This document shows positions 5,115 through 51,994 of a stretch of 64,000 nucleotides of DNA, piece by piece. A program made the position numbers and the translations under genes. Where the stretch lies: assembly GCF_000346485.2 (NCBI RefSeq), contig NZ_KQ976354.1:11478207-11542206 (forward strand), written 5' to 3'. This DNA is from Scytonema hofmannii PCC 7110 (GTDB lineage: Bacteria; Cyanobacteriota; Cyanobacteriia; Cyanobacteriales; Nostocaceae). Position 1 is the first letter of the stretch. Each line of letters begins with the position of its first letter. The notes beneath the pieces were generated by a model that was not told where the DNA came from, did no database searches, and saw only the letters and a list, made by a program, of their open reading frames with translations.

Positions 5115-7310
5115 TTAAGCATACAAGCTTTCCAGGAAGTTATAAAATTTTCGTAGCTGATCTATTGCAACTTGTCTTGCCCAAGGATAGCTAAGACGAT
5201 ATTTTTCTTCAAGCTCATCTAGGTCTGCAATCAGTCTATTTTCTGCTTCTCCCCAACTTATCAGTGAGTTACCCAAACTTTGATCTCTGACAAGCTCAAA
5301 CTTCGTCTCTAAATTAGCCATCCAAAGATAATATTTGATAATTCTCTCTTCTGGCTTTAACAAGTTTTGAGCAGCTTTCCATAACTGGCCAGTTACCTCG
5401 ACTAATCTCTCAGCTTCTTGTATAAACTCTCGGTCATTTTTGCCTTTTTTAGCCTGATACAGATATCCCCATAATCTAATATCAGCAATTCCTCTGTACT
5501 GATGAGCGGTATCTCCAATAGCTTGAGCAGAGCTAGTAAACTTTTCCAGGGTAACATCATGTTTTTGAAAAGAAGATGAATCCCATTCAGATAACCATTG
5601 AGGCACGTAAGGAGCATTTACTAAAAGAGCTTTTAAATTATTTTCATACTCATCAGGTTGAGATAATCGGAAATTTACAAGCCTGAAGACAGCAGCTTTA
5701 GCATAAGACTCAATTCCTTTGCTGTACAATTCTTGAAACTTCTCAGGGTTAAGATTTTGAATATCTTTAAAAAGTAAAAATCCATATTGATTGCCTCTAT
5801 GCCCCCAATAATGCGCTGCTCTTAAAATATAGGGAGCAACCACGTTAGAAGGAGGATTTGACAACTGTTTCAATTCATCAGGTAATAATTCATCTATAGC
5901 TGCTTCTAAATCTTTAGGAGTAAATATTTTTCCATCAATTTCAATTTTGTGTTTTTCTACTATAAGATTGTGAGCATGATCCAAGCAAAAAAGTTGATAC
6001 CAAAGCCATGCCTCATGCTTACCTTCAAAGTTGATAGAATTTCTACTCTTAACATATTCTCTGGTCATCAAAAAACTTTGAACAGCATTTCTTGTGCCTT
6101 CTTCTCGACGATCCGCATAATAGCTGTGACCGATCATCTTATTTAGAATTATATGTCCCTCAACATCTTTTTCAGACAATACACTCCGAATATTTTTAAT
6201 TCGTTCAAGACCATTATCTAAATAGCCAGTGTCGTAAATATACTGCTGAAAAACGAAGTTATCGAATAAAACACCCCAAATATTTAGAAACTCTTGATCT
6301 TCTTTCAGCTTTTTAAGAAAAAATTCTTGAATCAATGGATGAATAGGATTGCTATCTTCTTCGTGAATTAAGTGCAAGTCCTTAAGATTAATTTTGGCTA
6401 TACCACGTTGTTCATCTAAAGGCTTAACTGCTTTTTCTACTAGAGACCAGGTATATGCAGGAGCATCAAACAGACTTAGAATTGCCCCCAGTTGCTTTCC
6501 CGATTGTCTTAGTTGACTCCAATTCAAGTCAAAAACAGCATAAACACTTTCATATAATCGCCGTTCTCCTTCCATAAGATCGGCTGTAGTTTTGCCATTA
6601 CCAATAGGGATTGCAGTCTCATGCATAGCAGCCTGATCTAAACCTTTTTTCTTGAGTTGCTTAAGCAACTCCAACAAAGTGTCTTCTTTGAACTCTCGAA
6701 GATAGCGACCAACAAGATTCAAACCTAAAGGCAGATTACCTACCCATTCACAAAGCTTTTTGGCCTCATTCCGTTCATTAATAAGTCGCTCTCTACCAAT
6801 ATATGCTTCCAAAAGATTTAGTGCATCTTCTTCTCGTAAAACTTCAAGTACCAAAGAAGCAATATTGAGAGGCTCCAATCTTAGACGTGTTGTAATGATT
6901 ACTTTGAGTTTGGGATCATAAGGAGGTAGAAAATCTTTAACTTGGTCATACGCTGCAACATCATCAAAAATTACCAGTTTTTCTTCTGGAAATGCTTGTG
7001 ACCAAAGATTCCAACAAGCTTCAACTTTTTTAGCCAAATCAATTTCTTTACCTGAAGATTGTTTATCTGGTGGAATAAATTCTAGGTGAATATTTGCAAA
7101 GTCTAAAATTTCATCAGCGACATCTTTTCCTCTGACATCGATCCAACAAATCCCACCAGGATATTGATTACTCTTTCTTGCTGCAATTGCATATTGCAGA
7201 GCTAGCTCGGTTTTCCCAATACCTCCCATTCCTTTAATAGCTGTAATAGCAAGCCTAGTTTCTTTAGTTAGCTGAGTCTCTAGGCTTCTTAGAGCTTCCT
7301 CACGCCCCAC
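5115..7310 (-). CDS. NB-ARC (NLR/STAND) ATPase, probably the 3' part of a frameshifted fusion gene
   Basis: 731 aa from the only available start, GTG 7310. Seen in order: GREEAL at the start, Walker A GMGGIGKTEL (~residues 26-35), Walker B LVIFDDV (~112-118), sensor KVIITTRLR, and the GLPL-like GNLPLGLNLVGR. A long alpha-helical C-terminal half (300-731) follows, probably a diverged TPR-like sensor. The same frame stays open upstream to 7460 and encodes a sensible N-terminus including NRYFVGRE, the usual opening of NB-ARC domains, but contains no ATG, GTG or TTG. The GTG start would cut into that conserved motif. The extension joins the upstream gene at an A9 tract in the -1 frame; read through, the fusion is about 934 aa. 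NB-ARC proteins are nucleotide-switched oligomerising sensors in immunity and programmed cell death. Confidence 0.85.
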   Translation of the reverse strand: MGREEALRSLETQLTKETRLAITAIKGMGGIGKTELALQYAIAARKSNQYPGGICWIDVRGKDVADEILDFANIHLEFIPPDKQSSGKEIDLAKKVEACWNLWSQAFPEEKLVIFDDVAAYDQVKDFLPPYDPKLKVIITTRLRLEPLNIASLVLEVLREEDALNLLEAYIGRERLINERNEAKKLCEWVGNLPLGLNLVGRYLREFKEDTLLELLKQLKKKGLDQAAMHETAIPIGNGKTTADLMEGERRLYESVYAVFDLNWSQLRQSGKQLGAILSLFDAPAYTWSLVEKAVKPLDEQRGIAKINLKDLHLIHEEDSNPIHPLIQEFFLKKLKEDQEFLNIWGVLFDNFVFQQYIYDTGYLDNGLERIKNIRSVLSEKDVEGHIILNKMIGHSYYADRREEGTRNAVQSFLMTREYVKSRNSINFEGKHEAWLWYQLFCLDHAHNLIVEKHKIEIDGKIFTPKDLEAAIDELLPDELKQLSNPPSNVVAPYILRAAHYWGHRGNQYGFLLFKDIQNLNPEKFQELYSKGIESYAKAAVFRLVNFRLSQPDEYENNLKALLVNAPYVPQWLSEWDSSSFQKHDVTLEKFTSSAQAIGDTAHQYRGIADIRLWGYLYQAKKGKNDREFIQEAERLVEVTGQLWKAAQNLLKPEERIIKYYLWMANLETKFELVRDQSLGNSLISWGEAENRLIADLDELEEKYRLSYPWARQVAIDQLRKFYNFLESLYA

Positions 7311-10700: not shown

Positions 10701-10812
10701 GGGTTAGGGAGTAGGGAGTAGGGAGTAGGGAGTAGGAAAATAGTACTTCTTTCCCTACCCCCTAACCTCCATTCCCCACTCACCACTCCCCACTCACCAC
10801 TCCCCACTCCCT
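10701..10812. repeat. STRR heptamer block between adaptor and permease genes
   Basis: Runs of GGGAGTA (10701-10735) followed, after a short spacer, by C-rich units of the opposite sense (10751-10812). The two arms are complementary and can fold into a long hairpin. It fills the whole gap between the operon's two genes. Confidence 0.85.
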
Positions 10813-10815
10813 CAA

Positions 10816-13800
10816 ATGTTGACCCTTTTCTATCGCAACCGCCAACTACTCATCCTCACCTTGACACTCATTCTTGTCTGGGGATTATCTTCCTTCTTCT
10901 CCCTTCCTCGTCTAGAAGATCCGGAAATAACCCAAAGAGTTGCAACCGTCACAACGTTATTTCCCGGAGCCACTGCTGAGAGAGTAGAAATATTAGTCAC
11001 AGAACCCATTGAGCAAGAATTATCCGAGATTGAAGAAGTAGATGTTCTCGAATCTCGGTCTGATACTGGAATTTCCATCGTTACCGTCAACCTGAAAGAA
11101 ACAGTAGAAGATGTTGAGAAGGTTTGGGCAAAGATTCGGAGTCAGATTGATGACGCGATCGCGCAACTACCGCCAGGAGCATTACAGCCCAAGTACGAAG
11201 ACCAAGAAGTCAAAGCCAATTCCCTCATTGCTGGCTTAGTTTGGCAAGACAATACACCTGTAAATTACGCAGTTTTACGTAGATTGTCGGAAACATTAGA
11301 AGATAGGGTGCGATCGCTTTACGGTACTGACAAAGTGGAACTCTTTGGCGATCCAGAAGAAGAAATTCGAGTCGAAATCAACCCCGCTCATTTGGCAATG
11401 TTAGGGTTAACCACTGAAGAATTATCCCGTCAAATTCAAGCGAGTGATGCCAAGGTTAGTGCAGGACAACTCCGCAGTACTACTAACGAACTCTTGTTTG
11501 AAGTTTCTGGGGAATTAGACTCTCTCGATCGCATTCGCAATATTCCCATTCGCGCCAATCGATCGGCACAAGTAACACGTTTAAGCGACATTGCTCAAGT
11601 TAGCAAAGGTATTACTGAGCCAGCAAATAGTTTAGCCTTTGTGTCTGGCAACCCCGCCATTATCATCGCAGCCACAGTTGAGTCAGGAATCCGAGTCGAT
11701 ACCTGGGCGGAATCAGCACGTCAAGTTCTCAAGAAATTTCAATCCGAATTACCCAATGGTATCAGTATCAAAACCGTTCTTGACCAAAGCCATTATGTCA
11801 AGAACCGTATTAGAGGGGTCATTCAAGAGTTGGTGACTGGTTCAGTGCTGGCTATGATTGTGATTTTATTTACAATGGGCTGGCGCTCCGCCGTCGTAGT
11901 TGGTGCAACTTTGCCCTTAGCAACCCTGCTTGTGTTTGGAGGGATGAAAGTTTTAGGCGTTCCCTTGCATCAGATATCGATGACGGGATTAATTATCGCT
12001 ATCGGTCTGTTAATAGATAATGCTATTTGCATGGCAGATGAAGTGCAAATTCGACTGCATCAAGGAATGAGTTCGCAAGATGCGATAAGCCGGGTACGGC
12101 TTGCGCTAAGAGCGATCACAGACAGCGTGCGTCACATGGGTATTCCCTTGCTCAGTTCAACAGTCACAACAGTGTTAGCTTTTTTACCCATTGCTCTAGC
12201 CCCTGGTGGTGTAGGGGAATTCACTGGCACTATTGGAATTAGCGGAATTCTTGGACTTGTTAGTTCACTGTTGATTTCACTGGCTATTCTTCCTGCTTTG
12301 TCAGGTTTACTTCACACCAGGAAGCAAAACTCTCGAATTCCAACTTGGCTGGAACAAGGTTTCTCCCATCCCAGTTTGACCCGAGTTTACCGTTGGACGT
12401 TACAGAAAACATTTAGCCGACCTATGCTTGCAGTCAGTTTGGCTCTCCTAATGCCAGTGACTGGGTTTACCCTCAGTTTGGATCTAAAACAGCAATTTTT
12501 TCCTCCTGCAGGTCGAAACCAATTCTACATTGATTTTGAATTGCCAAGCCAAGCTGCTTTAAGCCAGACACAAGCCCAAGTTCTGCAAGCACGGAATTTA
12601 ATTCTCAAGCATCCTGATATTGTGGATGTCCACTGGTTGGTAGGGGAAAGTGCGCCAACTTTCTATTACAACGTTGTTGGTAAAAGGGAAAATGCAGCAA
12701 ATTACGCTCAAGGACTAGTGCAATTGCGACCAAATGTTTTACCGAGTCGCATGATTCAAAGTTTACAGGATGAGCTTGACAAAGCATTTCCCAGCGCTCA
12801 AGTCCTCGTGCGGCAAATTGAGCAAGGACCCCCATTTGATGCACCAGTTGAAGTTCGCGTGTACGGACCTGACTTAGAAAAGCTCCGAGAATTTGGTAAT
12901 CAAATTCGTGCAGAACTATCGCTAATTCAAGATGTACTTCACACCCGTGCTAGTTTGACAGAAGCACAACCAAAACTGGCAATAAAAGTCGATGAAGAAC
13001 AAGCACGAGTCGTGGGACTCGATCGCAGTGCTATCGCCCGTCAACTCGACACGACCCTTGAAGGTACAACTGGAGGTTCTGTATTAGAATCAACGGAAGA
13101 ACTGCCCGTGCGTGTACGTATATCTGACTCTAATCGTAGCGATCTAGACCGAATCGCTACTCTTGACTTACTACCCAACCAAGCTTCAAATTCGGAAAAC
13201 AATCAAACCATTCCCCTCGCATCTGTTGGTGAAGTACAACTAGTTCCAGATTTAGCAGTAATTCCTCGTCGCGACAGAAGACGAGTCAATATTATTCAAG
13301 GATTTATCACTGCGGGAGCACTTCCTGCGGTTGTTCTCTCTGAATTTCAACAACGCATACAATTAAAAAAATTGCAACTTCCTCCAGGCTATACTTTAGA
13401 ATTTGGTGGAGAAGCTGAAGAGCGCGGTACTGCAATTGCCAATTTGTTATCTACAGTTGGAGTCTTAGGGGTGCTGATGACAGCAACACTAGTACTGACT
13501 TTTAACTCATTTGCTTTGGCTGGATGCATCGGTATCATCGCTTTACTTTCAGTGGGACTGGGATTGCTGGCTTTATGGATATCTGGCTACCCTTTTGGTT
13601 TCACAGCAATTCTCGGTACCATTGGGCTGATAGGAATTGCAGTCAATGAAGCAACTGTTGTTCTGGCAGCTTTGCAGGCAGATCCACGTGCTAGGTTGGG
13701 CGATCGTTCAGCCGTACAAGAAGTTGTTGTGTCCCCCCCCCGCCATATGATTGCCACAACTATTACCGATACTGCTGGCTTTACACCGCTTTTGTTCGAT

Positions 13801-25636: not shown

Positions 25637-26677
25637 ATGAACTGCTCTTCACCAGAAGTACTTAAGTCCCATGCTGAGATTTTACAGCGGACTCAGCTTG
25701 GTAAACTGTGCGGTACTAAACAGCTATTTCGCGATCGCTATACAATACTAAGAGTTTTAGGGAGAGGTGGTTTCGGTGTCACGTTCTTAGCTAGGAATGC
25801 AGTGTTACCAGGGAAACCACTTTGTGTTATCAAACAACTTTGTCCGAAAGTAGACAATGTCAACAGCTGGAAACGTGCTTGCCATCGCTTTGAAAAAGAA
25901 GCAAAAACATTGGCTCAATTAGGAAGTCATTCTCAAGTTCCCATGCTTTTGGACTACTTTGAAGTCTGTGGGGAATTTTACTTAGTTCAAGAATATGTCA
26001 AAGGTTTTAACTTAGCACAGGAAGTTAAAAGGACTGGTTTATACACTGAAGACACAGTTAAAAAATTTTTGCAAGAATTGCTGCCAGTATTACAGTACGT
26101 ACATAAAAATCATGTCATTCATAGAGATATTAAACCTCATAACATACTACGTTGTGAAGATGATAAACGGTTAGTGCTCATTGATTTTGGTGCTGTCAAA
26201 GAGGAGTTGGTGTTAAAGAATGAAACATCAATGGATGCACCTGCAAATACTAATTTTATTGGAACGATGGGATTTGCTCCGCCAGAACAGCTTTCCTTGC
26301 GTCCAGTTTATGCTAGTGATATTTACGCACTAGGTGTGACTTGTCTTTATCTTTTGACTGAAAAACTACCTCTGGAATTTGAGTATGATGTTAAAACAGG
26401 TGAGATATGTTGGCAAAAAGCGGTAAGCGTCAGTGCTTATTTTGCTCAAATTCTAGATCGAATGCTCAAACTTTCTCTAGAAGAGCGTTTTAAATCAGTC
26501 GATGATGTCATTTGGGCTTTAGAGATGGAAAATCATTTGCCCACCTTGACTGACTGTTTAACAACTCAAAGATTGGGAGTCCAGGAGAAAAGTGTCAGCG
26601 AAGAACCAGAATACTTGACGCCTACAGAAAGAACTGCAAGAGCGATTCGCGACTGGCAAACAAGGAAAAAACAGTGA
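25637..26677 (+). CDS. Ser/Thr protein kinase, Hanks type, kinase domain only
   Basis: 346 aa. P-loop LGRGGFGVTFLA (~residues 40-51), VIKQL Lys, catalytic HRDIKPHNIL, DFG in LIDFGAVKE, and FAPPEQ of the activation segment. All catalytic residues are present. No TM or WD40 region follows; the C-terminus is a short tail. ATG 25637. It is the first gene of a kinase/WD40 cluster on the same strand, with an STRR run directly after the stop. It is presumably cytosolic; targets unknown. Confidence 0.93.
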   Translation: MNCSSPEVLKSHAEILQRTQLGKLCGTKQLFRDRYTILRVLGRGGFGVTFLARNAVLPGKPLCVIKQLCPKVDNVNSWKRACHRFEKEAKTLAQLGSHSQVPMLLDYFEVCGEFYLVQEYVKGFNLAQEVKRTGLYTEDTVKKFLQELLPVLQYVHKNHVIHRDIKPHNILRCEDDKRLVLIDFGAVKEELVLKNETSMDAPANTNFIGTMGFAPPEQLSLRPVYASDIYALGVTCLYLLTEKLPLEFEYDVKTGEICWQKAVSVSAYFAQILDRMLKLSLEERFKSVDDVIWALEMENHLPTLTDCLTTQRLGVQEKSVSEEPEYLTPTERTARAIRDWQTRKKQ

Positions 26678-26709
26678 CCAGTGACCAGTGACCAGTGACC
26701 AGTGACCAG
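26675..26709. repeat. STRR, TGACCAG heptamer
   Basis: Five TGACCAG units beginning at the stop codon of the kinase gene and separating it from the next kinase. Confidence 0.85.
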
Positions 26710-30134: not shown

Positions 30135-30162
30135 GTCACTGGTCACTGGTCACTGGTCACTG
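30135..30162. repeat. STRR, GTCACTG heptamer
   Basis: Four GTCACTG units (reverse sense of TGACCAG/CAGTGAC) in the 40-bp gap between convergent genes. Confidence 0.85.
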
Positions 30163-30166
30163 TTTC

Positions 30167-31519
30167 CTAAAACACAGTCAACCGATACGTACCCCGTTCT
30201 CTTGAATTTGCTGAGATAACGACTACATAGTACGTGCCATCTTCAGGTAACTTGGCTCGGTCAATGAATGCACTGTACCTTCCATCCTTGTTATCATCTG
30301 TAGCGACAATTTGCCCTTGGGAATTCAACAAGACTATGTAAGGTGAAAACTGTTCAAAGACACTGTCAGCACGGATACTCACAAGTTGGTCTTTTTTACC
30401 CTGAAACTTAGATATATTATAAGGGCTGCCACTTTTTCGTTGGATTCGACTTTCTTGGGTTAATTCATCAGAGCGATCGAGACTGTAACTTGCTCTGTCA
30501 TTTCTAAGAGCCAAACTGTACCGCCCTGTATCTCCGGGCTTACGGCTGGTGACAGCGATCGTGTAGGTACCTGTTCTTGGCAATCGGACAAAAATAAATG
30601 CATCTTTGACTCCTTGAGGATTCACCTCTTCATTACCTCTCGTCAAAAGCACGTTATTATCTGGATCGAGCAAAAACATGAAGGGGTCTAAATTCAAGTT
30701 GTTTGTACGACGCCGATCTGCACTACCACTTAGCCTAATTTGAACAAGTTGGTTTTCTCTACCTTCAAACTGGTAGAAGTGATAATATCTGCCCTGTGAT
30801 TGATAATCTCCTGGAGCCAAAACACCGAATGCGATATCTACAAAGTTTATTTCTTGAAACTCAGGTGTTTTGGACAAAGAAACAGATGAAGTAGCTGCTG
30901 TTGTTGGCGTAGAATTTCCCTGGCGTGAAGGCTTAGAATTTCCCTGGCGTGAAGGCTTAGAATTTCCTTGACGCGAAGGCGTAGAATTTCCTTGGCGCGA
31001 AGGCGTAGAATTTCCTTGACGCGAAGGCGTAGAATTTCCTTGACGCGAAGGCGTAGAATTTCCTTGGCGCGAAGGCGTCGAGCGATCGCCTGAAGGACTA
31101 GGTACTGGAATGGAAACACCTGTGCCGGATGGAGTAGATGTTGTGCTAGTGTTAGAGGGTTGCGTTGGTGTAGTTGAGACGTTCGGTTTTGAGGCCGTGC
31201 TGGTCTCAGAAGGATTAGATTTTGGGGTGGAATTTACAGATCCCGAAGATACACCTGCAGGTAGAGGCGATTCAATGGGTTGTTTTACCTGTCGGGGTAC
31301 GGGTTGTTGGGCTATAGGAATTTGCTCAATACCTTTTTCTACTGCTGCTGGTTGTCTCTCATCGGCGGGTTTGGCAATTAAAAAGGGTTTTGAGTGTAGG
31401 ACATTTGCTAAAACCTTGATAGGAAAGGCATAATTTGTTATCAACAAACTACTACTCATGCAACCAATTAAAGCCAACTTTAATTTGTTTGCACATTGTT
31501 TGTTGCTTTTTTCTACCAT
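30167..31519 (-). CDS. Secreted protein with two PPC-like domains and an Arg/Ser/Pro octapeptide repeat
   Basis: 450 aa from ATG 31519, preferred over the upstream ATG 31591 because it has AGGAG ten bases before it and starts a signal peptide (KLKLALIGCMSSSLLITNYA). A Ser/Thr/Pro-rich linker contains seven PSRQ units of a GNSTPSRQ octapeptide. Two beta-sandwich pre-peptidase C-terminal (PPC)-like domains follow; the first has YYHFYQFEGRENQLVQIRL and GTYTIAVTSRKPGDTGRYSL, the second GTYYVVVISAN..ERGTYRL. No protease domain is present. PPC domains bind or guide secretion; here the protein is probably an exported surface or matrix protein. It is convergent with the WD40 gene and divergent from the second kinase. 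Confidence 0.8.
   Translation of the reverse strand: MVEKSNKQCANKLKLALIGCMSSSLLITNYAFPIKVLANVLHSKPFLIAKPADERQPAAVEKGIEQIPIAQQPVPRQVKQPIESPLPAGVSSGSVNSTPKSNPSETSTASKPNVSTTPTQPSNTSTTSTPSGTGVSIPVPSPSGDRSTPSRQGNSTPSRQGNSTPSRQGNSTPSRQGNSTPSRQGNSKPSRQGNSKPSRQGNSTPTTAATSSVSLSKTPEFQEINFVDIAFGVLAPGDYQSQGRYYHFYQFEGRENQLVQIRLSGSADRRRTNNLNLDPFMFLLDPDNNVLLTRGNEEVNPQGVKDAFIFVRLPRTGTYTIAVTSRKPGDTGRYSLALRNDRASYSLDRSDELTQESRIQRKSGSPYNISKFQGKKDQLVSIRADSVFEQFSPYIVLLNSQGQIVATDDNKDGRYSAFIDRAKLPEDGTYYVVVISANSRERGTYRLTVF
30908..31078. repeat. 24-bp coding tandem repeat
   Basis: Seven near-identical 24-bp units encoding GNSTPSRQ/GNSKPSRQ in the linker of the PPC protein. The repeats abut without spacers, so this is not a CRISPR array. 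Confidence 0.9.
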
Positions 31520-31903
31520 TTTTACGCTACTCCTGTTGATTGAAACATTGTACTCAGGGTAGATTGACACCGTACTATATTTCACCAACAAAATACTATA
31601 GTTAATCTGCTGATTTACTGATATAGATTACTGTTGCTTGGTACCTAAAAAAACGTCACAAACATAACTTCTATAAATCTTTACACTAGCAATGCTTTTA
31701 TTTATCTATATTAAAGAAGCTTTTGTAGCTTTCCCAACAAATCCAGATGTTAACATCAAAATATCGAGAAACAATGTAGAGACGCGCCATGGCTTGTCTG
31801 TACAGGGATTGTAGACGATGCACAATAAATTTCTGGAGATGTTTAATATAAATCTTCGATATTTCTTCCTGAAAGCTAAACCATTCACTTATGGATTCCC
31901 AGT
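31520..31903. other. Divergent promoter region
   Basis: Gap of ~384 bp between the divergent PPC and kinase genes. AT-rich; I see no further gene or repeat. Promoters for both genes must lie here. Confidence 0.5.
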
Positions 31904-37266: not shown

Positions 37267-37299
37267 TAGGGAGTGGGGAGTGGGGAGTAGGGAGTAGGG
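37267..37299. repeat. STRR, GGGAGTG/GGGAGTA heptamer
   Basis: Four to five units between the small Cys protein and mnmE. Confidence 0.85.
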
Positions 37300-37379
37300 A
37301 TGAGGCGTGGTAACAAATATTGGTACACTTGAACTATGATAAGTTTAATTTTTTGCAATTCACTATAAATCGTAACTGA

Positions 37380-45478: not shown

Positions 45479-46279
45479 ATGTCTTTTATTCAAAAAATAA
45501 AAAATGCTAATGCATTGATTGTAGGAGCAAGCCAAGGTATCGGTTTTGGTTTTGTAAAAACATTACTGCAAGATGATAGAATTGCCAAAATTTATGCAAC
45601 CTATCGTCAACCAGATTCTGCTTCTGAGTTGTTAACTTTAGCAGACAAATACTGCGATAAGCCGGGTACAGCTTGTGCCAAGGGCGATCGCTTAACTTGT
45701 CTGTCAATGGATATTACTGATGAATCACAGATTGCTGACGTTGTCCAAAAGATCCGCACAGAAGTACAGCAACTTCATCTAGTCATTAATTGTGTGGGTA
45801 TGTTGCATGAATCTTCTCTAGAACCAGAAAAAAGTTTACGACAAATTAATCCAGAACACTTAATGCGCTACTTCCAAGTTAACAGTATTGGCTCGGTTTT
45901 ACTCGCCAAACATCTATTACCCTTATTCCGTCACAAAGAGCGTAGTGTTTTTGCTAGTATTTCAGCCAAAGTCGGTAGTATAGGTGATAATCAACTTGGA
46001 GGATGGTATGGTTATCGAGCCTCGAAAGCGGCTCTTAATATGTTCTTGCGAACAGTGGCGATTGAGTATGGAAGAACTAGTCCCAAAACCATAGTTGTCA
46101 CCTTACATCCCGGTACAACAGATACTCGTCTTTCCAAACCGTTTCAAGCAAACGTACCACCTGAAAAATTGTTTTCCGTTGAGCGGACAGTCACTCAGTT
46201 ACTGAGTGTTATTGAGCAACTTGAAGAAGACGATAGCGGAAAGTTTTTTTCTTGGGATGGTAGCCAATTGCCTTGGTAG
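45479..46279 (+). CDS. SDR-family oxidoreductase
   Basis: 266 aa. Cofactor loop GASQGIG (~residues 17-23), DIT, NCVGMLH (NNAG equivalent), Ser in SISAKVGSI and catalytic YRASK (Y-x-x-x-K). NAD(P)H-dependent; resembles CsgA-like/C-factor SDRs in size and in TLHPGTTDTRLSKPF near the end. A 30-bp dispersed repeat inserts DKPGTACAKG after YC (residues ~60-69), in the loop after the second strand, away from the active site. The enzyme is probably still functional. ATG 45479; monocistronic, STRR after the stop. Confidence 0.9.
   Translation: MSFIQKIKNANALIVGASQGIGFGFVKTLLQDDRIAKIYATYRQPDSASELLTLADKYCDKPGTACAKGDRLTCLSMDITDESQIADVVQKIRTEVQQLHLVINCVGMLHESSLEPEKSLRQINPEHLMRYFQVNSIGSVLLAKHLLPLFRHKERSVFASISAKVGSIGDNQLGGWYGYRASKAALNMFLRTVAIEYGRTSPKTIVVTLHPGTTDTRLSKPFQANVPPEKLFSVERTVTQLLSVIEQLEEDDSGKFFSWDGSQLPW
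45654..45688 (+). mobile_element. Very small dispersed repeat, copy B (inside SDR gene)
   Basis: GCGAT, 25-bp core (three base changes against copy A's first 21 bases and a different end), GCGAT. The right-hand copy continues CGC, completing a HIP1 site at 45684-45691, so the element appears to have entered a GCGATCGC. Confidence 0.85.
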
Positions 46280-46280
46280 C

Positions 46281-46331
46281 AGTAACCAGTAACCAGTGAC
46301 CAGTGACCAGTGAGCAGTAACTAGTGACTAG
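46281..46331. repeat. STRR, CAGTGAC/CAGTAAC heptamer
   Basis: Six to seven units starting at the SDR stop codon. Confidence 0.85.
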
Positions 46332-46336
46332 TCAGA

Positions 46337-46938: not shown

Positions 46939-46977
46939 ACAACTAACAACTAACAACTAACAACTAACAACTAACAC
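46939..46977. repeat. STRR, TAACAAC heptamer
   Basis: Five TAACAAC units ending 13 bp before the phosphatase ATG, so they fill its 5' untranslated region. Confidence 0.85.
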
Positions 46978-49275: not shown

Positions 49276-49731
49276 ATGACTGACAAAAGGCGTTCTGTTG
49301 ATTACAAACAAGTCAGCGGCTATGTTCTCCTAGATATAGCGCGGGAATTCAAAAGCGTTTGTGCTCGTGAGGGAATTTCCCAAAGTGATGCAATAGAAGA
49401 GATGCTTTGTGAGTGGCTGGCTAAACGAACTGCTTCCAACTTCTCAACACCCGAACAAACCTATTTCCCAAGAACGATTGCGGAGTTGGTTCGAGTCAAT
49501 ATGACAAAACTGAGGCACCTTGGAATCAAAAACTTGCAAGCGCTTGCCAAAGGGGAAGTACTACCCACACCTGGGGACTTCGCCATTATCACGTCTACTT
49601 TGGGCATTCCCGAGCAAGAACGTAAGATGATTTGGCAACAAACTTTTAAGTGCTTACATGACAATTCTGGAGGTGTAATAGATGAGTATGAGTGTTCTGA
49701 AAGTCATCAATCAACCAGGTTGGAACTATAA
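49276..49731 (+). CDS. DNA-binding regulator-like protein overlapping the next gene
   Basis: 151 aa. Residues ~10-50 (VSGYVLLDIAREFKSVC, SQSDAIEEMLCEWL) have strand-helix-helix character like a ribbon-helix-helix unit. Residues ~65-125 (TIAELVRVNMTKLRHLGIKN, ALAKGEVLPTPGDFAIITS) look helical and may form a second helix-turn-helix. The last 50 bp overlap the start of the PAS-like gene in another frame, with the latter's GGAGGTG ribosome-binding site inside this ORF, so the pair is translationally coupled. No such partner precedes the second PAS-like copy. Function inferred; no named family recognised. Confidence 0.6.
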   Translation: MTDKRRSVDYKQVSGYVLLDIAREFKSVCAREGISQSDAIEEMLCEWLAKRTASNFSTPEQTYFPRTIAELVRVNMTKLRHLGIKNLQALAKGEVLPTPGDFAIITSTLGIPEQERKMIWQQTFKCLHDNSGGVIDEYECSESHQSTRLEL

Positions 49732-50383
49732 GCTGTCTTCTGAAGGAGTTTCTATCCTTGCCCCTACAAAGCAAGATGCAACTCGTCTTGCTCAAACTTA
49801 TGGGGATGTTTTGACTGAAACCGCAGCAAAAATTAAGGGGAAAGTGCGAATAGCATGGAAACGCTGCAAGCATCCCATTGAGTTTTACGGGTGGATGGGG
49901 TTTCAAAAAATGCCTGTATCTGCTAAAACTAGCGATAAGCCGGGTACGGCTTGCGCCAAGGGCGAACGCATTTTCCCTGGAGAAACAGTTTTTTGCAGCC
50001 AGTTGTACTTACCGACAGCATTGTTGTATCGAATGATTGCAGCATCTGAAAATCAGCGTCCAGTCAGTATTGTCAGACAAGATAACAACCAGCAAATCAT
50101 TGTTAACCAAGCAATGTCTGATATGTTGCAGTCTTTTCCAAAGATTGCCACTCAAAGGGTGATGACCCGATTTTGGCTACCGGAAGATTTAGCAGAACTG
50201 CAACGGCGCTTACGCAATGAGAGCCGATTTATTTGGACTTACTGCGGTGGACTCAACGAACAAACTTGGGCAATCCTTACAACTGAGTTCGAGGCTTTTG
50301 AAGTTGAGGGAATCTGGTACAGACAGGGAACCTGTTTGACCACTCCTCAACCTGTGCCGATCCCACCAGGGTCTTTTCAGTGA
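49682..50383 (+). CDS. PAS-like domain protein, copy 1 (with 30-bp repeat insertion)
   Basis: 233 aa. It aligns throughout with 51268-51945. The N-terminal ~65 residues (NQPGWNYKLSSEGVSILAPT, CKHPIEFYGWM) form a shared domain of unknown type. The C-terminal part (RPVSIVRQDNNQQIIVNQAM, then RVMTRFWLPEDLAELQRRL and WYRQGTCLTTP) has PAS-like strand order with a possible ligand pocket. Residues ~84-93 (DKPGTACAKG) are encoded by a dispersed repeat missing from copy 2; removing them makes the two proteins align without a gap there. ATG 49682 has a strong GGAGGTG. Partner of the overlapping regulator. Role unknown, probably sensory. Confidence 0.7.
   Translation: MSMSVLKVINQPGWNYKLSSEGVSILAPTKQDATRLAQTYGDVLTETAAKIKGKVRIAWKRCKHPIEFYGWMGFQKMPVSAKTSDKPGTACAKGERIFPGETVFCSQLYLPTALLYRMIAASENQRPVSIVRQDNNQQIIVNQAMSDMLQSFPKIATQRVMTRFWLPEDLAELQRRLRNESRFIWTYCGGLNEQTWAILTTEFEAFEVEGIWYRQGTCLTTPQPVPIPPGSFQ
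49932..49966 (+). mobile_element. Very small dispersed repeat, copy C (inside PAS-like gene)
   Basis: GCGAT, 25-bp core, then GCGAA CGC (a one-base variant of the duplication and of HIP1). Absent from the paralogue at 51268-51945, which shows the ancestral state. Confidence 0.88.
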
Positions 50384-50407
50384 CCAGTGACCAGTGACCA
50401 GTGACCA
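50381..50407. repeat. STRR, CAGTGAC heptamer
   Basis: Four units running through the stop codon of PAS-like copy 1, so the last residue and stop (Q, TGA) are formed by the repeat. Confidence 0.85.
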
Positions 50408-50503
50408 GCAATTAGCCCCCTGCATTTATTTATAAAAAAAATTTATTATTCAAATCCCCTACTTTTAAGTATGAGGATCAATTGTTCACTGGTTTGAGGT
50501 GTC

Positions 50504-50548: not shown

Positions 50549-50612
50549 AATTACTGGTCACTGGTCACTGGTTACTGGTCACTGGTTACTGGTTACTGGT
50601 CACTGGTCACTG
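50549..50612. repeat. STRR, GTCACTG/GTTACTG heptamer
   Basis: Nine units, the longest heptamer run in the window. Confidence 0.88.
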
Positions 50613-50992: not shown

Positions 50993-51163
50993 GGGCATGG
51001 GGGATCAAGTCTTAACCGAGAAGTATTAGGACTAACAGCTTAAAAAAACTGTTAATTAAGTTTGCGCTATAAATTAATGGTGCTGTAAATAATACACTCA
51101 TTAATGGCGGGATTTTTGTTTGTTTAACACTATTTATTCCTCAGCTTGCTGGGCAGTGATTTA

Positions 51164-51208
51164 ATCCAAAATCCAAAATCCAAAATCTAAAATCCAAAAT
51201 CCAAAATT
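51164..51208. repeat. STRR, TCCAAAA heptamer
   Basis: Six units 60 bp before PAS-like copy 2. Confidence 0.85.
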
Positions 51209-51267: not shown

Positions 51268-51945
51268 ATGAGCACGTGTGTTCTTAGAGTTCTCAATCAA
51301 GCAGGGTGGAACTATAAATTGTCCTACCAAGGGGTTTCTATCCATGCCCCTACAAAACAAGATGCCATATATCTTGCTCAAAACTATGGGGATGCTTTGT
51401 CGGAAACGGCAGCAAAAATTAAGGGGAAAGTAAAAATAGGGTGGAAACGTTGCAAACACCCAATTGAGTTTTTTGGATGGATGGTCGATCAAACACCACC
51501 TCCACCAGCTGAGACTGCTGAGAGTCTCTTACCAACAGGTTCAGTTTTTTGCAGTCAGTTGCACTTGCCAATGGAATTGTTGTATCGAATAATTGCAGCA
51601 GCTGAAAACGAGCGTCCGGTCAGTATTGTCAGACACGATAATCAGAAGCAAATTATTGTCAATCAAGCAATGTCTAATTTGCTACAAACTCCGCCGGAAA
51701 TTGCCACTCAAAGAGTCATGACTCGATTTTGGCTACCTGATGACTTGGCAGAACTAGAGCAACGATTGCGGAGTGAAAGCCGATTTACTTGGACTTATTC
51801 TGGTGGACTCAATGAACAAACTTGGGCAATCCTTACAACCGAGTTTGAGGCTTTTGAAGTAGAGGGGATTTGGTACAGACAAGGAACCTGCTTGACCAGC
51901 CCTCAGATTGTACCCATTCCTGTCGGGGCTTTTGCTCCAGCTTGA
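51268..51945 (+). CDS. PAS-like domain protein, copy 2 (uninterrupted)
   Basis: 225 aa, paralogue of 49682-50383 and about the same length once that copy's ten-residue insertion is removed. Shared blocks: GWNYKLS.QGVS.HAPTKQDA, AAKIKGKVKIGWKRCKHPIEF, ATQRVMTRFWLPDDLAEL and TWAILTTEFEAFEVEGIWY. The PAS-like C-terminal half is preserved. Unlike copy 1 it has no overlapping regulator gene, only repeat-rich DNA upstream, so its control must differ. ATG 51268 follows AAGGTGTGAGAG. Function unknown, probably sensory. Confidence 0.7.
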   Translation: MSTCVLRVLNQAGWNYKLSYQGVSIHAPTKQDAIYLAQNYGDALSETAAKIKGKVKIGWKRCKHPIEFFGWMVDQTPPPPAETAESLLPTGSVFCSQLHLPMELLYRIIAAAENERPVSIVRHDNQKQIIVNQAMSNLLQTPPEIATQRVMTRFWLPDDLAELEQRLRSESRFTWTYSGGLNEQTWAILTTEFEAFEVEGIWYRQGTCLTSPQIVPIPVGAFAPA

Positions 51946-51948
51946 GTC

Positions 51949-51994
51949 AGTGACCAGTGGCCAGTGACCAGTGACCAGTGACCAGTGACCAGTT
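51949..51994. repeat. STRR, CAGTGAC heptamer
   Basis: Six to seven units just after PAS-like copy 2, adjoining hairpin element copy 2. Confidence 0.85.

Follow-up and report, generated by a model that had tools for sequence, protein, structure and literature searches.

The 64,000-bp stretch of the Scytonema hofmannii PCC 7110 genome analysed here (the window) contains three copies of a short dispersed repeat, all on the forward strand and all inside protein-coding genes. Copy 1 (12082..12116, +), a variant of the 30-bp unit (GCGCTAAGA), lies in a gene for an RND permease of the AcrB/AcrD/AcrF family (PF00873; 10816..13959, +). Copy 2 (45654..45688, +) lies in a short-chain dehydrogenase gene (PF00106; 45479..46279, +), and copy 3 (49932..49966, +) in the first of two PAS-like genes (49682..50383, +; 233 aa). 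The PAS-like paralogue (51268..51945, +) is without the insert, its empty position falling after residue 84, near 51519. Neither of the two PAS-like proteins has a Pfam match at E ≤ 0.001, and the three host genes are mutually unrelated. A scan of the window with a 32-base pattern, allowing up to three mismatches, retrieved these three copies and no others, and the same pattern had no match in 100 dinucleotide-preserving shuffles of the window.

Direct reading of the sequence confirmed the three 30-bp inserts at 12082, 45654, and 49932 that a preliminary description had reported, together with its claim that two genes gain the same ten residues and the third gains ten different ones. Copies 2 and 3 add DKPGTACAKG (residues 85–94 of the first PAS-like protein); copy 1 is read in another frame as ISRVRLALRA (residues 424–433 of the permease). 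The two PAS-like proteins are 75% identical, and the only internal gap in their alignment corresponds to the ten columns of DKPGTACAKG, so that, as had been claimed, they align without a gap once these residues are removed. The flanks proved less regular than described. GCGAT had been expected on both sides of each copy; it is present on the left of copy 3, but positions 49962–49966 on the right read GCGAA, within GCGAACGC. Similarly, the proposed HIP1 target (GCGATCGC) is found on the right side of copy 2 in the dehydrogenase gene, whereas the site at 12112, on the right of copy 1, reads on as GCGATCAC, an incomplete HIP1.

Homologues of the host genes were compared across the insertion points. 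The ten residues are missing from the dehydrogenase in 29 of 29 counted loci from the sister species and other genera (two with longer gaps), eight further strong matches standing outside the count. PAS-like loci of other genera lack them in 17 of 17 cases, with gaps of nine or ten residues; this count excludes L253, L259–L261, and L254 and L255, the last two having returned the insert-bearing gene and not the paralogue. In the sister species, the PAS-like orthologue carries the ten residues together with eight more. For the permease, the sister and five other homologues with more than 40% identity are without the ten residues, and 23 distant homologues (20–26% identity) are too divergent for the gap to be placed. 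A second S. hofmannii RND gene, 78% identical, gives a match that, judging by its coordinates, is 30 bp shorter than the query stretch. The presence of the ten residues in orthologues of distant genera, which the preliminary description had named as contradicting insertion, was thus not observed among the dehydrogenase, PAS-like, and RND homologues examined. In a PDB sequence match, an 11-residue gap of 3wxb chain A falls over the dehydrogenase insert, which therefore likely sits in a variable loop. A single-sequence AlphaFold2 model of the dehydrogenase with the insert was discarded (mean pLDDT 41).

The complete S. hofmannii PCC 7110 genome (12.29 Mb, 39 contigs) contains 76 copies that differ from the 35-mer at no more than three positions, and 158 units (83 and 75 on the two strands) that match the 18-mer AGCYGGGTACRGCTTGCG within one mismatch; the reversed control patterns gave no match in either search. 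The core is abundant, and its absence elsewhere in the genome, the second outcome named as contradictory, did not occur. Twelve of 192 genomes of the family, evenly drawn from a larger group, have a match, namely S. hofmannii PCC 7110 (158 units), a sister species of the same genus (69 units), and ten genomes with one or two units each; the other 180 contain no unit. Among these 192 genomes, the expansion is restricted to two genomes of one genus. An exact 32-base scan of 84,980 species, each represented by one genome and with the records of the genome under study possibly left out, matched only Scytonema sp. NIES-4073 and Brasilonema sp. UFV-L1. The lone copy in Brasilonema (6117–6148 of the fetched locus) is 30 bp long and antisense inside an ORF for a 1664-residue polyketide synthase, and its flanks are identical in genome G163. 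Such lone copies would likely result from transfer between genera.

From 350 kb of fetched pieces, we collected 128 units in 95 clusters, which were picked by search score, blind to genes, and cover most of the listed 30-bp copies and only part of the 28-bp ones. By register, 89 units are 30 bp long, 32 are 28 bp (three of these are really 27 bp), six are 29 bp, and one remained unassigned. The overall range of lengths is 24 and 27–31 bp; e.g., cluster 144511 spans 30 bp and cluster 7454254 spans 57 bp. Three loci in the fetched pieces share a 24-bp unit of different sequence, and 31-bp relatives, in arrays as well, carry a loop GCTCTTTCA that replaces the GGTA hairpin. The 31-bp relatives were seen at 229209 and 2000994 of S. 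hofmannii contig C1 and at 3616047–3616134 of contig C1 of the sister genome (G001). More 24-bp units with GCGAT boundaries and other sequences (stems GCTGCAAAGCAGC and GGCGCACAGCGCC) adjoin 30-bp units at the sister PAS-like site, at S. hofmannii C1 6129354, and in Scytonema sp. NIES-4073. Arrays are arranged head-to-tail with unit types mixed; inside frames they reach 90 bp, and two arrays of 87 bp resolve by sequence into 30+27+30. A 58-bp pair (30+28) occurs in three copies at C1 1867011, 1867913, and 1868909, 0.9–1.0 kb apart and with an identical left flank; these were probably duplicated along with a larger local repeat.

Unit length is related to location within genes. The earlier statement that each copy adds 30 bp and keeps the frame is valid for the 30-bp units; relatives of 28 and 29 bp exist and are rare inside frames. 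Frames were assigned not from annotation but with a codon model for which 26 window ORFs served as the training set. On this basis, 33 of the 61 clusters with a length divisible by three fall inside a single frame, compared with 3 of 34 others (p = 7.5e-6). Under a stricter threshold of the codon model, the proportions are 26/61 and 2/34 (p = 1.2e-4), and without two local duplicates the original test gives p = 1.6e-5. For single units, 27 of 49 of the 30-bp class and 1 of 17 of the 28-bp class are inside a frame. The 30-bp unit can be read without a stop in five of its six frames, and the sixth contains TAA; none of the 33 in-frame clusters uses the TAA frame, 19 use the DKPGTACAKG frame, and 14 use other frames. 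The share of the DKPGTACAKG frame exceeds the 21% expected from HIP1 phases, which are 9:8:4 in 30 window ORFs (p = 5e-6). This pattern reads as HIP1 insertion in any frame followed by the loss of harmful copies, the best tolerated being those read in the most hydrophilic frame. Three frame-shifting clusters of 58, 58, and 28 bp (C1 3508911, 10203879, and 10538905, respectively) are located inside an apparent single frame and may represent broken genes; the first of them lies in the TAA phase, against a clean rule. Runs of orientation along the genome gave p = 0.17 for 93 clusters, p = 0.009 for the 57 outside frames, and p = 0.03 for the 36 inside frames; a replication-strand bias, weak and confounded by gene direction, was not used.

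The insertion junction can be delimited from the context of the clusters. The unit is followed by GCGATCGC in 66 of 95 clusters and by GCGAACGC in 12, and is preceded by GCGAT in 85. GCGAA stands on the right in 13 clusters and is never observed on the left (p = 1.6e-4), so the left T is probably contributed by the unit. The left GC would be part of the target, as suggested by sister cluster 6523879, the empty form of which is AAGATCGC. Filled/empty pairs together with cluster context place the junction within GCGA. Empty sites in the sister include HIP1 itself and sequences that are merely HIP1-like (GCGAGCGC, GCGCTCGC, GCAATTGC, GCAGTCGC), and a few, e.g., 9152016, 10751541, and 7207264, barely resemble it; later change or looser targeting would explain such sites.

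For 30 in-frame S. hofmannii clusters, the flanks were joined without the insert and aligned to the sister species, with 20 sites alignable and ten not. The sister is shorter by exactly 30 bp at 13 of these 20, the permease and dehydrogenase genes of the window among them; flank identities are just 0.72 and 0.78 at two of the 13, which possibly are not orthologous. At two further sites the unit is absent from the sister and the difference is inexact, i.e., 81 bp for an 87-bp array and 45 bp for a 30-bp unit followed by a second unit. Five sites are occupied in each species, the count at one of them being a single unit in the sister and two in S. hofmannii. At the PAS-like site, both are filled, and the sister bears an extra 24-bp unit. 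In the reciprocal comparison, 22 of the 26 sister clusters in the fetched pieces were queried and 14 could be aligned. Ten of the 14 are empty in S. hofmannii, the net difference being equal to the unit or array length (at least six of 30 bp, plus 27, 28, 116, and 120 bp), with flank identity of 0.74–0.80 for three of the ten. Two more differ in copy number (1 vs. 2 and 1 vs. 4), and at another two a 30-bp unit in the sister corresponds to a 28-bp unit at the orthologous S. hofmannii site. The proposed check of empty sites in relatives has thus yielded exact presence/absence differences at HIP1-like sites between two species, and in both directions.

When set in HIP1, the unit is predicted to fold as DNA into a three-way junction of −13.5 kcal/mol, a value reached by none of 200 shuffles; the RNA fold is less distinctive (8/200 and 11/200 shuffles as low for the two strands). 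Predicted folds of seven unit types set in HIP1, including two 24-bp types of unrelated sequence and one idealised type, have a single topology, a three-way junction closed by the HIP1 halves. The outer stem of this junction is contributed by the HIP1 palindrome itself, and the 24-bp types support the junction only weakly, since 14/300 and 26/300 shuffled inserts fold as low. Compensatory swaps are seen in both hairpins. In 113 30-bp units from both species, pair 10/17 is CG in 74, TA in 31, and other in 8, and pair 26/30 is CG in 75, TA in 33, and other in 5. Among 26 distinct variants, 16 cells have changes on both sides of a pair vs. 7.0 in shuffles (0/500 as high), sequence kinship being disregarded in this comparison; two of five covariation measures, namely pairs with both-side change and further pair types, show no excess over shuffles. 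Apart from these two measures, the units display the stable hairpin with compensatory changes by which REP/REPIN elements are recognised.

Taken together, these data leave very little doubt that the unit is a mobile small repeat targeted to HIP1. The copies are dispersed, expanded in one genus among the genomes searched, situated at HIP1-like sites, and matched by exact filled/empty pairs; for the window genes, the insert is absent in other genera. To this are added the mixed head-to-tail arrays, the compensatory changes, and the scarcity of frame-shifting lengths inside frames. The initial proposal of a very small mobile repeat, aimed at HIP1, tolerated in frame, and akin to the small dispersed repeats of Nostoc, is supported accordingly. 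As to the complete explanation, we lean towards a non-autonomous very small repeat that enters HIP1 and is spread by an activity acting in trans on the folded strand. The unit would enter HIP1-like palindromes within the GCGA of GCGA/WCGC, leaving an intact HIP1-like site on its right. A putative trans-acting activity would recognise the folded strand, in which two hairpins are closed by two HIP1 halves in a three-way junction, cut within HIP1, and then copy or move the unit; the chances of such a structure-recognising activity appear evenly balanced. Repeated entry into the regenerated HIP1 at the right end could build arrays, and purifying selection would clear from genes those copies that cause a frameshift or introduce the TAA. 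In all likelihood the extra peptide has no function and is simply tolerated.

Several observations speak against this explanation: no enzyme or parent element was found among the Y1 loci scanned and the flank pairs compared; the empty sites of the sister include several that merely resemble HIP1 (GCGAGCGC, GCAATTGC, GCAGTCGC) and a few that hardly do; two of the five covariation measures show no excess over shuffles; the junction is weakly supported for the 24-bp types and as RNA; and the two orthologous sites with differing unit types fit recombination too. Because of the latter, a process without any dedicated enzyme is a serious rival, albeit one that we consider somewhat unlikely: patches bounded by GCGAT would spread from one HIP1 site to another, either by gene conversion or by microhomology-driven switching of template, perhaps aided by nicking at HIP1. 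Such a process agrees with GCGAT boundaries being common to families of unrelated core sequence, with the two of the 14 aligned sister clusters at which the species differ in having a 30-bp or a 28-bp unit, with the within-gene differences in copy number, and with the evidence tying HIP1 to site-specific recombination stated in PMC4390886. Yet any DNA between HIP1 sites should then spread, whereas the recurrent units, as surveyed in the fetched pieces, have two hairpins with compensatory pairs, and the expansion is limited to one genus despite the wide occurrence of HIP1 in cyanobacteria (per PMC4390886).

A dedicated enzyme of known type would be a Y1 (HUH) transposase, either a RAYT or one like those of IS200/IS605, that moves a REP-like element by acting on single-stranded hairpins. 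Y1 enzymes act on hairpin units that enter site-specifically beside a fixed short sequence and produce no clear duplication. The features of the unit match this behaviour, and the S. hofmannii genome has 24 matches to PF01797 (Y1 transposase); moreover, REPINs with RAYTs are reported in Nostoc punctiforme (PMC3116915). The stem-1 hairpin was searched for in 48 PF01797 loci from four genomes (23 of the 24 of S. hofmannii, and relatives), and no repeat copy was found beside the Y1-transposase genes scanned. Five matches with two or three mismatches in four of these loci were judged to be chance, none having a flanking GCGAT. RAYTs are often flanked by their REPs, and the GTAG tag of REPs (both points from PMC3733652) was not noticed in the unit; we therefore regard a Y1 origin as rather improbable. 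An all-against-all comparison of the 1-kb flanks of the 95 clusters gave 83 pairs with local similarity, and the longest 50 of them contain no shared extension at the junction. Hence, a full-length element with a transposase sharing the unit ends, for which the preliminary description had recommended a search, was not found in the 48 Y1 loci or the longest 50 of the 83 flank pairs. Loss in place of gain, with the ten residues ancestral and HIP1-promoted excision having deleted them in the paralogue and in other genera, would draw on the direct GCGAT repeats flanking each unit and on Robinson et al. 1997, who by the title listed among the references of PMC4390886 found that HIP1 promotes excision. 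Given that the residues are missing in 29/29 dehydrogenase loci and 17/17 PAS-like loci of other genera, and that 180 of 192 family genomes are without any unit, this is scarcely credible as a general account; excision may act on single copies. Retention of the inserts owing to a useful peptide DKPGTACAKG could account for 19 of 33 in-frame clusters sharing one frame; still, the other 14 use different frames, the window host genes are unrelated, and the sister is without most of the inserts compared. The frame bias is explained more simply by better tolerance of the hydrophilic reading, and a benefit to the host proteins is very improbable.

Returning to the mobile HIP1-targeted repeat, the best reading of the sequences, set against published families by their descriptions, is that the units form a new family of cyanobacterial small dispersed repeats (SDRs; Elhai et al. 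2008, as cited in PMC4390886, PMC2884548, and PMC3116915). Like SDRs so described, they are very small, mobile, and dispersed (about 20–30 bp in many copies, 158 units against none in the control) with filled and empty sites in relatives (13/20 and 10/14 aligned sites). Insertion of SDR5 inside HIP1 is already in print (PMC4390886), and the present units share this precise insertion (GCGATCGC in 66 and GCGAACGC in 12 of 95 clusters). As to differences, the exact scan of one genome per species matched the present sequence only in Scytonema sp. NIES-4073 and Brasilonema sp. UFV-L1, and the expansion is confined to one genus among the genomes searched. In the results of our literature searches on related repeats, some of them partial texts, the present sequence is named nowhere. 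HIP1 (GCGATCGC) is itself the target of the units and the source of both ends of the fold; unlike the units, it is an over-represented octamer and not mobile, as portrayed in PMC4390886. The units resemble REP/REPIN elements, as outlined in PMC3116915 and PMC3733652, in being small dispersed hairpin repeats that form arrays and in part lie within genes, REPs inside genes being known in several species (PMC3733652). In contrast to REP/REPIN systems with RAYTs, no copy stands beside Y1 genes in the 48 loci and the units are bound to HIP1 sites, and unlike REPINs, which are inverted doublets, their arrays are direct and head-to-tail. Rickettsia palindromic elements (RPEs), as presented in PMC2229807, also sit in frame in unrelated conserved protein genes, but are 105–146 bp long, compared with 24–31 bp at HIP1-like sites here; RPEs are similar in working, and the units are not assigned to them. 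Judged by the description of SDRs, the kind is already known, and the present family is probably new and unusually testable.

The family bears on how elements of 20–30 bp move and on the role of HIP1. Two related genomes supply many exact filled/empty pairs, the length classes provide an internal test for reading-frame selection, and the predicted fold could serve as a defined substrate in the search for an enzyme; the family also illustrates one route by which ten-residue loops enter conserved proteins. A broader idea, which we regard as unlikely but worth stating, is that the sequence-unrelated families of 24–31 bp constitute one mobile class set by shape, i.e., by two hairpins and a HIP1-closed three-way junction. 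If so, one junction-recognising, HIP1-cutting activity would spread all of these families, into genes as well as spacers, and HIP1 would be a docking site for short protein insertions.

The window contains other repeats as well. Heptamer tandem arrays (CAGTGAC, TAGGGAG, ACAACTA, AATCCAA) occupy positions 10705–10736, 26672–26709, 30135–30162, 37267–37300, 46280–46332, 46939–46976, 50378–50408, 50551–50612, 51163–51207, and 51948–51993, several of them directly 3' of genes, and a CAGTGAC-type stretch of approximately 50–60 bp is common to the flanks of several unit clusters. Tandem arrays with a 24-bp period were observed at 42–122 (3.4 copies) and at 30906–31078 (7.2 copies), the latter within an ORF on the reverse strand (30167–31591).
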